This document shows, piece after piece, positions 46,515 through 50,423 of a stretch of DNA of 64,000 nt; within the stretch, counting starts at the first letter, position 1; each line of letters opens with the position of its first letter. The translations under genes were made by a program, and so were the position numbers. The stretch is from Alphaproteobacteria bacterium (GTDB taxonomy: Bacteria > Pseudomonadota > Alphaproteobacteria > UBA8366 > GCA-2717185): contig JBBDQU010000080.1 in assembly GCA_040905865.1 (NCBI GenBank), positions 1-64,000 of the forward strand, given 5' to 3'. Below the pieces are notes generated by a model, which was not told where the DNA came from, searched no databases, and saw only the letters and a program-made list of their open reading frames with translations.

Positions 46515-48878
46515 CTACTTGACGGCGTTTCTCAGCAGATCTGCGGCCTGATGCGGCGTCACGAACTGACCGCCCAGTTCTTCCTGAAAATACTTTAAAA
46601 ACTGTTCAATTCGGCGAAGAAGAACTTCCAGGTCGTGCTTGGTTTGCACATAAGGTGTACTTCCAGGAAGCAGTGACGCACTATGATACGAGAAACAGAA
46701 AAGCTTTCGGCCGTCTTTGAGCAAATTAGTCATCAATCTTCTGTGGGCATTATGGTCGATCCCCTCGGGTGTAAGGGTGATGCGCTCCAGAAGAGTTCCG
46801 CGCGCGAAAAAACCAGGTATCTTGCGTGTCAGCACATTTTGAGCATCAATGTAAGCGGATATGTGCCGGGCAGATGCAGTCGTTCTTAACAGCCCAGAAT
46901 AACCCCTGGTTAAGGGAAGCTCCAGAAAATTCTTCTCATCATCCAGCCAAAATGAAGAGTCAGGATATCGTGTAAAGTCGGGGCCGCCTTCCCTAGCATA
47001 GGATGTATGAGGAACGACGCTGGTGTCTACTTCATAGCCAAATTTTCTGATTAATCCAAAACATTCTTTATTTATTCCATATCGGCCAGCCTTGAAAACA
47101 GTTGGAAAATATTGGAATCCATCGGCAAATTTATCCGTAATTATTTCGATTTTTTTTGTAATGAGTTCGGGGGAAAGATTGCACAAAAAGGAATTTTTTA
47201 CGTTCAGTTCTTCCTCGAACGGAGGATTCGTCCAGGGATGAATCTGTACACCAATTTCACATTGGTTTTCGTCCTTCAAATGTTTCAGATACTGAACGGC
47301 TTCTGCATTGTCGAGTACTGGAAAATCTGCCAGATACGTAGGCTTTACTCCATACCTTGAAAAAATATCTTGCGCTAGGTATTGATTTTTTATGGAGTTT
47401 ACGCCGTGTTCATGCCTGCTGAATGGAGCATTCCAATTGAATTCCTCTTCAGTATCCACAATAACGCAGAGCGTCGGCTTTTTTAGAAATTCTTCATTCG
47501 TAGGAATGTTGTACGGAACCGACGGCGGCGTGGTATGGCTTTTCTGATGAATTGAAACGTTGTTAGCCGTCGGTTTCAAGGCTGGCGTCGCAACCTTTTG
47601 TAGGGTATCGCGCAGGGCGTCAAACTGCTGATCCCGGGAAAATCCCCGATGAACCGATTCAGGCAGATTCGGAATAAAACCTGAATTTTTCTTTATAGAT
47701 ACCCATTCAGATAGTTGTTGTGCAATTTCTCCAGGGTCATTGGAAAACAACCCGGCAGATCTCTCTCTGATAATTCGCGCGGGAACGCCGTCGTTCAGTC
47801 CTATTCCCAATATGGGACGCCGAACGGCGAGGTATTCGAATAATTTGGCCGGAACATTGCCTTGCTCGCGAATATTATTCCATTGCAGGAGCAGAAGGAT
47901 ATCGGCCGCTTTTTGTATTTCGAGAGATTCTTCATATCCAACGCGACCCATGATGTCGATAAAATCGGAAACACCGTATTTTTCGGCAATTGGCGCCATA
48001 CTTTCGATATTCGTTCCAAAGAAAACAACTCGAACCTGATCAGGTGTCAGTTGAGACTGGGCAATAGCTTGAAAAAGTGGCGATGGATCACGTTTTCCAG
48101 AATATATGGAGCCCATGTGCAGAATACGTAGCGGCTCTTCCGGTTTAGGAAGGGGAGTCGGTATCGTACCTATTTGCGCCGGGTCGAAACCGTTCATTGC
48201 AAGTGTAACGGGCAGGTTGAATTTCTTTTCAAAAAAAGTAACCCAGGGCTCTGAAACGCTGACGATTGCCGCTGCGCTTTTCAGTACTCTGGTTTCCAAC
48301 CAGTTATCGGTGATATGGCGCCAATCGGGTAATTCGCGATAGGGATCGTCCACCCAACGATCCCGATATTCGGCGACCCATGGAATCCCGTGTTTCCGGC
48401 TCAGATAAAAGGCGAGTAAAAATGCCGAAAATGGCGGTCCACTGACATAAATAAGATTCGGCTTCCATTGGCGAAGCAGATCGTTCGACGGCTTCACGGC
48501 CTTCGGAATCCAGCCGATAAACCTGTCCGGAAAAAAGAAAAAATTATTATAGTTTGCTGCTATAGTTTTGCGGAGTGCCTTGATTCCGCTATTCATGCCT
48601 TGAGGAGAGTTCGACGTCTGGATGTTGTTACTATTCAGAATGCGTCCATGGGTTTTTGACAAAGGATGGATATACCGGTCAATATCGATCCATCCCGTAT
48701 TGAGAATTTTTTCTTGAGGTATTTCAATAGTTTGTGTGCGGTCCGGGTCGCCTATGCCGGACGTAATGACACGTATGTCGTATCCGTTCCGATGTAAATA
48801 CCTTGCAAATTTTCCCGTTCGTACGGCGGCGATAGTATTGATGGGTGGGAAATGCCATGTAATAAAAGCAACCTTCAT
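46515..48878 (-). CDS. Glycosyltransferase fused to a polysaccharide deacetylase-like (WalW-type) domain
   Basis: A 787-residue protein with two domains. Residues 1 to about 410 are a GT4-like glycosyltransferase: AFITWHFPPINTIAAVRTGKFARYL at the N-terminus, VSVSEPW, LRILHMGSIYSGKRDP and the C-terminal KLFEYLAVRRPILG donor-site region. From about 465 on, a NodB/WalW-like fold begins LCVIVDTEEEFNW and continues with GVKPTYLADFPV, FKAGRYGINKE and CFSYHSASLLPG. It would build and/or trim a cell-surface glycan. The block is clearly AT-richer than its neighbours, suggesting transfer. Start ATG 48878; a TTG at 48887 is possible. No glycan genes are adjacent. Confidence 0.85.
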   Translation of the reverse strand: MKVAFITWHFPPINTIAAVRTGKFARYLHRNGYDIRVITSGIGDPDRTQTIEIPQEKILNTGWIDIDRYIHPLSKTHGRILNSNNIQTSNSPQGMNSGIKALRKTIAANYNNFFFFPDRFIGWIPKAVKPSNDLLRQWKPNLIYVSGPPFSAFLLAFYLSRKHGIPWVAEYRDRWVDDPYRELPDWRHITDNWLETRVLKSAAAIVSVSEPWVTFFEKKFNLPVTLAMNGFDPAQIGTIPTPLPKPEEPLRILHMGSIYSGKRDPSPLFQAIAQSQLTPDQVRVVFFGTNIESMAPIAEKYGVSDFIDIMGRVGYEESLEIQKAADILLLLQWNNIREQGNVPAKLFEYLAVRRPILGIGLNDGVPARIIRERSAGLFSNDPGEIAQQLSEWVSIKKNSGFIPNLPESVHRGFSRDQQFDALRDTLQKVATPALKPTANNVSIHQKSHTTPPSVPYNIPTNEEFLKKPTLCVIVDTEEEFNWNAPFSRHEHGVNSIKNQYLAQDIFSRYGVKPTYLADFPVLDNAEAVQYLKHLKDENQCEIGVQIHPWTNPPFEEELNVKNSFLCNLSPELITKKIEIITDKFADGFQYFPTVFKAGRYGINKECFGLIRKFGYEVDTSVVPHTSYAREGGPDFTRYPDSSFWLDDEKNFLELPLTRGYSGLLRTTASARHISAYIDAQNVLTRKIPGFFARGTLLERITLTPEGIDHNAHRRLMTNLLKDGRKLFCFSYHSASLLPGSTPYVQTKHDLEVLLRRIEQFLKYFQEELGGQFVTPHQAADLLRNAVK

Positions 48879-48887
48879 TTCGTTCAA

Positions 48888-49043
48888 AACTTTTTCATCT
48901 TGTTGTGCTCCATTAGGATTGAACGTAGGAATAAATATTCGACCAGTAAAGCCAGCATAAAATGAATTCTGGCAATCTGCCTGTTCTGAGGCTCGATTGA
49001 TTTAAGGTTAATTTATTGAACTGTCCTCATACTGACTTTGTCT
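48888..49043. other. AT-rich intergenic region
   Basis: This gap between the glycosyltransferase fusion and the gltA terminator holds no gene. It is AT-rich and probably carries the promoter of the fusion gene. Confidence 0.5.
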
Positions 49044-49082
49044 AAAAAAAGAACGGATAATAAAACATTTATTATCCGTTCT
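49044..49082 (-). terminator. Rho-independent terminator of gltA
   Basis: On the reverse strand, AGAACGGATAATAA and its perfect complement form a 14-bp stem with a 5-nt loop (49050-49082), followed by seven T (49044-49050). It lies 22 nt after the gltA stop. Confidence 0.9.
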
Positions 49083-49103
49083 ATTCTTAGATTCGGACTG
49101 ACG

Positions 49104-50423
49104 CTAGCGCTTCCCGATCGGTACGAACTTGCGATCGGTGTGGCCCGTGTAGAGTTGCCGCGGCCGCGAGATCTTCTGGGACGGGTCCTCGATCATTTCC
49201 TTCCACTGGGCAATCCAGCCCACTGTCCGCGCCACGGCGAACAGCACGGTGAACATCGATGTCGGGAATCCCAGCGCCTTCAGGATGATGCCGGAATAAA
49301 AATCCACGTTCGGGAACAGCTTGCGCTTGATGAAATAATCGTCCTCCAGGGCGATCCGTTCCAGTTCCATGGCGATGTCGAGCAGCGGTTCGTCCTTGAT
49401 GCCCAGTTCGTCCAGCACGTCATGCGCGGATTTCATCAGCACCCGGGCGCGCGGGTCGTGGTTCTTGTAGACCCGGTGGCCGAAGCCCATGAGCTTGAAA
49501 TTGTCGTCCGGATCCTTCACGCGCTTAATGACCGAGCCGACGTTATCCTTGCTGCCGATCTCGTTGAGCATGATCAGAACGGCCTCGTTGGCGCCGCCAT
49601 GCGCCGGACCCCACAACGATGCGATGCCCGCTGCGATGCAGGCGAACGGATTGGCGCCGGAGGAGCCTGCGGTGCGCACCGTGGAGGTTGACGCATTCTG
49701 TTCGTGATCCGCGTGCAGGATCAGGATTTTTTCCATGGCGTCGGAGACGGTCGGGCTGACCTTGTATTCCTCCGCCGGGACCGCGAACATCATGTGCAGG
49801 AAGTTCTCGGCATATCCCATGTCGTTGCGCGGATACACGAAGGGCTGGCCGATGGAATACTTGTAGGCCATGGCCGCGATGGTCGGCATCTTGGCGATCA
49901 GCCGGTGGGTGGCGATCATGCGCTGGTGCGGGTCGTTGATGTCGGTGGAGTCGTGGTAGAAGGCGGATAAGGCGCCGGCGACGCCGCACAGGACGGCCAT
50001 GGGGTGCGCATCGCGCCGGAACCCGCGATAGAAGTTGTGGAGTTGTTCATGCACCATCGTGTGGTTGGTGATGGTCATGTCGAAGCTCTTTTTTTCTGCG
50101 GCGTTCGGCAGTTCGCCGTTGAGCAGGAGGTAACAGACTTCCAGGAAATCGCAATTCGCCGCCAGGTCCTCGATCGCGTAACCGCGATGCATCAGGATGC
50201 CTACGTCGCCGTCGATGTAGGTGATCTTCGACTCGCAGGCGCCGGTGGAGGTGAATCCCGGATCATAGGTGAAGTGTCCGGTCTGGCCGTACAGCGGGCG
50301 TACGTCGATCACTTTCGGTCCCACGGTACCGGGCATCAACGGAAAGTCGTATGTTTCACCCGTACTGTGGTCTGTCAGTGTCACATACTCGTTTCCGAGT
50401 GCACCCTTCGCTTTATCGCTCAT
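49104..50423 (-). CDS. gltA: Citrate synthase (type II)
   Basis: The 439-residue enzyme condenses oxaloacetate with acetyl-CoA. It has the bacterial type II N-terminal extension ([21 protein letters not shown]), [16 protein letters not shown], the [11 protein letters not shown] histidine motif and [13 protein letters not shown]. The length and N-terminus suggest the NADH-regulated hexameric form of Gram-negative bacteria. It follows gltX on the same strand after a 114-nt gap and ends at a strong terminator. Confidence 0.97.

Follow-up and report, generated by a model that had tools for sequence, protein, structure and literature searches.

The glycan chemistry of the XrtA/PEP-CTERM system seems to be little known. 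Its accessory genes (TIGR03097, TIGR03006, TIGR03087/TIGR04063) provide the first comparison for the gene described here, a fusion of a GT4-like glycosyltransferase and a WalW-like NodB-fold domain found in a window of 64,000 nucleotides, the whole stretch of DNA that was analysed. Such clusters contain or adjoin several relatives of the halves, and the host genome has an exosortase A together with TIGR03006, TIGR03087 and TIGR03097 members, but the window's protein is under every NCBIfam cut-off, is fused and is encoded on another contig. ArnC, a GT2-type membrane enzyme, and ArnD offer a second comparison, drawn by analogy, in which a NodB-fold deacylase takes over from a glycosyltransferase on a lipid-linked sugar; ArnD also matches the window's domain in fold (Z 18.3). 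These two, however, are separate proteins with another substrate and gene context. The PuuE allantoinase group (NodB1.2) shares the fold (Z 20.6) and the Trp that replaces the second motif-2 His, whereas the window's motif 1 keeps Asp and Glu and the context of its family is glycan synthesis. WalW-like NodB-fold proteins align with the window's domain over its length (83 sequences), but most of the relatives examined are stand-alone proteins some 340-370 aa long. The gene walW is listed among core LPS genes in the available portions of PMC7877592 and PMC9794015. No work pairing WalW with polysaccharide deacetylase was found in the open-licence literature, and that on exosortase/PEP-CTERM, glycosyltransferases and deacetylases held no recognisable account of this fusion.

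The fusion gene and its two domains

The original prediction described a 787-residue protein joining a GT4-like glycosyltransferase to a WalW/NodB-like domain, encoded between a dioxygenase gene and gltA with no other glycan gene nearby. The open-reading frame was recovered, with Pfam GT4 matches in one half and a NodB/CE4-type model for the other, and is flanked by a TauD-type dioxygenase gene on one side and gltA on the other; the lack of glycan genes nearby agrees with our reading of the ORFs, only some of which were profiled. The features of the locus are as follows.

46515..48878, minus strand: GT4-like/WalW-like fusion gene, 787 aa (ORF, start ATG at 48878)
47589..48878, minus strand: GT4-like glycosyltransferase half, residues 1-430, GT-B fold (Pfam, fold match, conservation)
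47520..47579, minus strand: predicted disordered linker, residues 434-453 (pLDDT <50 in the AlphaFold2 full-length model)
46518..47492, minus strand: WalW-like NodB-fold half, residues 463-787 (AlphaFold2 model, fold matches)
49041..49091, minus strand: terminator-like hairpin 3′ of gltA, between gltA and the fusion gene
49104..50423, minus strand: gltA, at the edge of the region colinear with congener G003

The frame is intact, with no internal stops across the 787 aa, and an alternative in-frame TTG start at 48887 would give 790 aa. A short frame seen by eye (MEHNKMKKF-stop, window 48884-48913, minus strand) ends 5 bases before the fusion ATG and is possibly a leader, or chance. The AlphaFold2 model of the full-length protein has two confident domains joined by the disordered linker, and its pTM of 0.58 leaves the domain arrangement unsettled. 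No membrane-spanning stretch was found in the protein (maximum Kyte-Doolittle 1.44 in 19-residue windows). The neighbouring TauD-like dioxygenase is among 42 matches of its kind in the same genome at E 1e-40 or better. Beyond the window, the same contig has a GHMP-kinase gene at 70975-71991. A sugar-biosynthesis cluster with E1-dehydrogenase and GHMP-kinase genes lies about 17-24 kb from the fusion (66-73 kb of the contig, L065), and the G003 stretch colinear with it additionally has DegT aminotransferase, epimerase and nucleotidyltransferase genes.

The glycosyltransferase half exceeds the Pfam cut-offs of PF13439 (50.6 vs 28.5 bits), PF13579 (46.1 vs 29.7) and PF13692 (27.2 vs 27.0), with PF00534 below its own (25.1, cut-off 26.4). 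Its predicted model has the GT-B fold, matching PimA at Z 29.6 over 344 residues, BshA at 29.4 and WaaG at 26.2; no match to solved-structure sequences was obtained at 0.01. R172, D173, K345, F347 and E348 are invariant in 10 of the 14 aligned rows, four distant rows being set aside for this count. EX7E is a motif of GT4 glycosyltransferases, and it is incomplete here, with E348 kept and its partner, the first Glu, replaced by G340; this half is therefore labelled 'GT4-like'.

Searches of Pfam and NCBIfam up to E 1 gave no match touching residues 430-787. AlphaFold2 modelled the WalW-like half at pLDDT 93 with a NodB/CE4-type fold, matching HP0310 (Z 22.2), 3rxz (21.9), PuuE allantoinase (20.6), a GH57 enzyme (18.6) and ArnD (18.3). 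Its profile gave 10 matches among solved-structure sequences up to E 10, with chance-level pyruvate oxidases on top and 3rxz, at E 0.24, as the single polysaccharide deacetylase. For the whole protein, which reaches the cut-off of no NCBIfam family, TIGR04063 (stp3) scored 22.4 bits against a curated 442, and TIGR03006 (XrtA deacetylase) was not one of its two NCBIfam matches up to E 1. The family's tie to the name WalW is weak, resting on the label in the original prediction and on a single plasmid match annotated 'WalW protein' (24% identity over 39% of the query). As aligned here, the family is defined by whole-domain homology and by an invariant set of residues (E, W, W, P, N, L, K, R, G, S, G, E, H), to which the window's half conforms.

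Relatives of the halves and exosortase clusters

Matches to the protein were found in 14 of 59 relatives, 9 of 43 genomes of the order, 43 of 385 of the class, 72 of 398 of the phylum and 9 of 82 of the order of G387, sets that overlap, differ in E limits and, except for the last, contain the window's own genome. An end-to-end match was reported only in the window's genome and in G017, of the same order; the class and phylum searches scored at most two candidates per genome and may under-count fusions or second halves. A scan of genome contigs gave 18 loci, every one matching the WalW half. As separate genes, the halves are adjacent on one strand in G043, neighbours on opposite strands in G374, 4.9-8.3 kb apart (start to start, one strand) in all five genomes of the G387 genus, about 32 kb apart in G093 and on different contigs in G099. 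WalW-like domains are also fused to GT2 at four loci (L097, L105, L107, L146) and to another GT4 at one (L150). A single origin of the seven glycosyltransferase fusions was rejected (p-AU 0.008), with long branches present and with the tested clade, like the genus clade below, named after the tree was seen. Further fusion partners of WalW-like domains were an MBL-like region some 500 aa long (L112:1429-3966, L116:1432-3933; MBL 17.0 and 17.3 bits, below Pfam cut-offs) and a protein whose N-terminal domain is PcRGLX-like (L151:5728-9372). Long upstream frames at L076, L086, L115, L144, L147, L148 and L149 were judged by eye to be non-coding read-through and were not counted as fusions.

Carriers of the WalW half tend to carry an exosortase. 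Among 384 class genomes (own genome excluded; 51 with an exosortase match), 29 of 38 WalW carriers had one, against 5.0 expected, and the same held for 7 of 10 carriers of the glycosyltransferase half, against 1.3 expected; counted by family, which is the only handling of kinship, co-occurrence was 18 of 22. These counts take the WalW-half and exosortase draws, 385 class genomes each, as the same genomes. No exosortase was detected in 9 of the 38. When the own genome is included, 30 WalW carriers have an exosortase; in 14 of them the two share a contig, and in 11 they lie no more than 40 kb apart. Exosortase-associated polysaccharide clusters contain, or are close to, several relatives of the halves, and the G017 fusion follows a UDP-ManNAc-dehydrogenase gene, with PrsK, O-ligase and exosortase within 23 kb. 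The window's own genome has an exosortase A at C23:23030-23779 (195 bits; TIGR03109 241 vs 208 bits), TIGR03006 and TIGR03087 members also on C23 and a TIGR03097 O-ligase on C74. The fusion gene itself, on C80, is outside the exosortase cluster.

Direct observation thus gives the fusion, the predicted folds, a family-wide active site without His-x3-His (below), partner genes and clusters in relatives, and an XrtA cluster elsewhere in the genome. The most likely reading is a rare GT4-like/WalW-like fusion with a role in an XrtA-associated polysaccharide pathway, acting by transfer and then trimming. On sequence, models and analogy, we propose with moderate confidence that the protein is a soluble enzyme with two domains, belonging to the exopolysaccharide pathway linked to XrtA (exosortase), and that it would carry out transfer and then N-acyl hydrolysis. 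The GT4-like half would add a sugar to a lipid-linked precursor at the cytoplasmic face of the inner membrane, and the tethered WalW-like half would then hydrolyse an N-acyl group (acetyl or formyl) or a similar amide on the same or a neighbouring sugar. This putative order is modelled on the separate ArnC and ArnD acting on undecaprenyl phosphate, whose steps are set out in the available part of PMC12748117.

Base composition, the gltA slot and the history of the gene

The gene had originally been read as a single-gene glycan-modifying unit acquired by transfer. A recent transfer of such a self-contained gene from an AT-richer donor is an account that we consider rather unlikely as a whole. 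Its premise, that the gene is AT-richer than its neighbours and uses codons unlike theirs, was confirmed. The gene has a GC of 0.457 and a GC3 of 0.451, compared to 0.614 (sd 0.033) and 0.745 (sd 0.052) for 70 reference ORFs, a deficit of 0.157 and 0.29, where the reference is an uncurated set picked from 98 ORFs by GC3>GC1>GC2 and includes an O-ligase. Among these 98 ORFs of at least 200 aa on 159 kb of the genome, a set that includes spurious ORFs, it is second lowest in a CAI-like measure. The AT-rich block, from about 46.6 to 49.1 kb, is confined to the gene and its upstream region, which favours transfer. Rank 1 in the CAI-like measure is a methyltransferase-domain singleton with a GC of 0.396 in GC-rich surroundings (C74:46979-47698; L170:16980-17699), about 3 kb from the XrtA-type O-ligase, and that O-ligase (C74:50263, GC 0.516) is third. 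Since both of these genes carry the same bias, it is not unique to the fusion gene, which counts against transfer. In GC the fusion gene trails its surroundings by 16 points; the G017 fusion, in contrast, equals its 20-kb stretch (0.578). The WalW-like genes of G003 and G006, in the family of the window's genome, fall short of the GC of their stretches by 7-8 points, which those of G014, G043 and G374 do not.

From gltA rightwards, 49.1-72.8 kb of the contig is colinear with contig C28 of G003; leftwards no match to C28 was found. The G003 gltA is 93% identical to the window's and its WalW-like domain 42%, a disparity that speaks for transfer, but the latter lies in the same slot beside gltA, which speaks against it. 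The G003 gene is on the opposite strand and begins with motif 1, directly following an IS21-like element (terminal repeats L019 6851-6877 and 9283-9309); a search of that contig gave no trace of the glycosyltransferase half (best E 2.7). Past the element are a truncated monooxygenase-like gene, a CoA-transferase-like gene and an O-ligase, which lie together on C74 in the window's genome; the join across the element may be IS-mediated or an assembly error. IS21-like copies or fragments of istAB type are present in G003 at L019 289-2603, L019 6888-9160 and L059 1157-3582, and one copy joins regions lying on separate contigs in the window's genome. The G001 contig stops 89 bases beyond gltA, and G005 has lpxB-like genes beside gltA, by reading of translations; the IS21, monooxygenase, CoA-transferase and lpxB genes, as well as the Prs-type genes of C23, were all named from translations, without profiles.

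A search with the left flank (40.0-46.46 kb) matched 40.0-42.6 kb in G001, 40.0-42.96 kb in G003 (C17) and 40.0-42.1 kb in G002. No block made up of the 42.6-46.5 kb genes was found in G001-G003, which would suit a transfer, though all three left-flank matches end at or near contig ends; just the hydroxyacid dehydrogenase gene was found, at high identity and in other surroundings, on C49 of G003. The segment of 42.6-49.1 kb is likely variable.

Other marks of transfer were not seen. The two tRNA genes of the window lie at 8.3 and 31.7 kb, the gene has short repeats nearby but no long flanking one, and inspection of the 42-53 kb ORFs by eye revealed no integrase. Of the plasmid records, 13 matched at 1e-15, each over one half only, so that none holds both, and phage records gave no match at E 1e-5.

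Trees were built from 83 rows covering at least 260 query residues for the WalW half, also the alignment used throughout, and from 14 rows covering at least 330 for the glycosyltransferase half; they omit shorter and near-identical matches, and the loci used are fewer than all matches. The window groups with G017 in both the glycosyltransferase tree (89/98, not starred) and the WalW tree (99/88, starred), where G003 comes next (84/75). A tree constrained to unite window and G003 scored 4.06 log units above the free search (p-AU 0.613), so more than one branching order of window, G017 and G003 would fit, and inheritance of the WalW-like domain within the genus is not rejected. The fusion is rare, an end-to-end match being reported in one other genome, G017. 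WalW-like genes of G006/G008 and G005/G009, of the same family, sit in other clades, so within the family the gene's history is more complex than plain vertical descent. Already before the split from G003 a WalW-type gene could well have lain 3′ of gltA, and a single fusion event with loss of the glycosyltransferase half to the IS in G003 would fit. Of the original claim of a single-gene unit acquired by transfer, a transfer at some time is possible, given the composition, the 42% against 93% identity and the other clades, and it may have been a recent single-gene one; a free-standing unit is unlikely, because an XrtA cluster is present on another contig of the same genome and G003 has a WalW-like gene in the same slot.

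An atypical active site in the WalW-like half

The deacetylase half was also predicted to have possibly lost activity, as the classic NodB His-x3-His was not seen. The positions concerned are as follows.

47448..47456, minus strand: motif 1, D475-T-E477 (D in 82/83, E in 83/83 aligned sequences)
47232..47246, minus strand: motif 2, Q545-I-H547-P-W549 (Trp in 83/83, aligned at the second metal His of canonical CE4)
47082..47084, minus strand: R599 of the AGRYG motif (83/83)
46683..46685, minus strand: H732, motif 5 (83/83)

The observation was correct, but it is a trait of all the aligned sequences: His-x3-His at motif 2 is present in 0 of 83, the window reading QIHPW. Invariant in all 83, window included, are E477, W482, W549, P553, N567, L568, K576, R599, G601, S620, G632, E705 and H732, with H547 present in 78. 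Position 545 is His in 55 sequences and Gln in 28, and all five rows without His at 547 have it at 545. In a profile alignment to three TIGR03006-type deacetylases (probability 74.6), position 545 falls at the first metal His and Trp549 at the second. Because the Asp-His-His triad with His-x3-His is missing, the WalW-like half is not filed as CE4, and N-deacylation by it is not assured. The suggested loss of activity was not upheld, as the whole family lacks His-x3-His and keeps its other active-site positions. On these alignments, WalW-like domains look like a non-canonical family with an atypical active site rather than dead copies.

In our judgement the WalW-like half is unlikely to be a glycan-binding pseudoenzyme that serves only to anchor or position the glycosyltransferase. 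Such a role would agree with the missing canonical D-H-H metal triad, and CE4-fold pseudoenzymes exist (structure titles 7bkf, 6hpa), but the conservation of E477, R599, S620, E705 and H732 in 83 of 83 sequences and of D475 in 82 goes beyond what a scaffold would be expected to require. PuuE allantoinase also argues against it: according to the available portion of PMC10967932, this enzyme works without metal and has the same His-to-Trp change at motif 2, yet it also lacks both motif-1 Asp residues. An orphan remnant of an older polysaccharide locus, now out of use, is very doubtful, since the lone position on a contig other than the exosortase's and the G003 copy truncated by an IS21-like element would suit it but the intact frame, conserved motifs and confident predicted fold do not.

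Implications for WalW-like domains and the XrtA pathway

Beyond the preferred reading of a transfer-then-trim enzyme, we tentatively suggest a broader one, which we think less probable: WalW-like domains could form an unrecognised class of NodB-fold hydrolases that carry Trp in motif 2 and either act without metal or bind it through unusual ligands. They would follow immediately on a glycosyltransferase, their targets being the lipid-linked precursors of exosortase-associated polysaccharides. On this view the window's gene would encode a transfer-then-trim enzyme in a single chain, and the class would supply a modification step that is missing from the XrtA pathway. The absence of His-x3-His is a poor ground for calling such domains inactive. 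Through the fusion, a NodB-fold family for which no assigned function was found is linked to a glycosyltransferase, and co-occurrence connects it with the XrtA/PEP-CTERM polysaccharide system; the product of the fused transferase indicates the substrate class in which to look for WalW-like activity.
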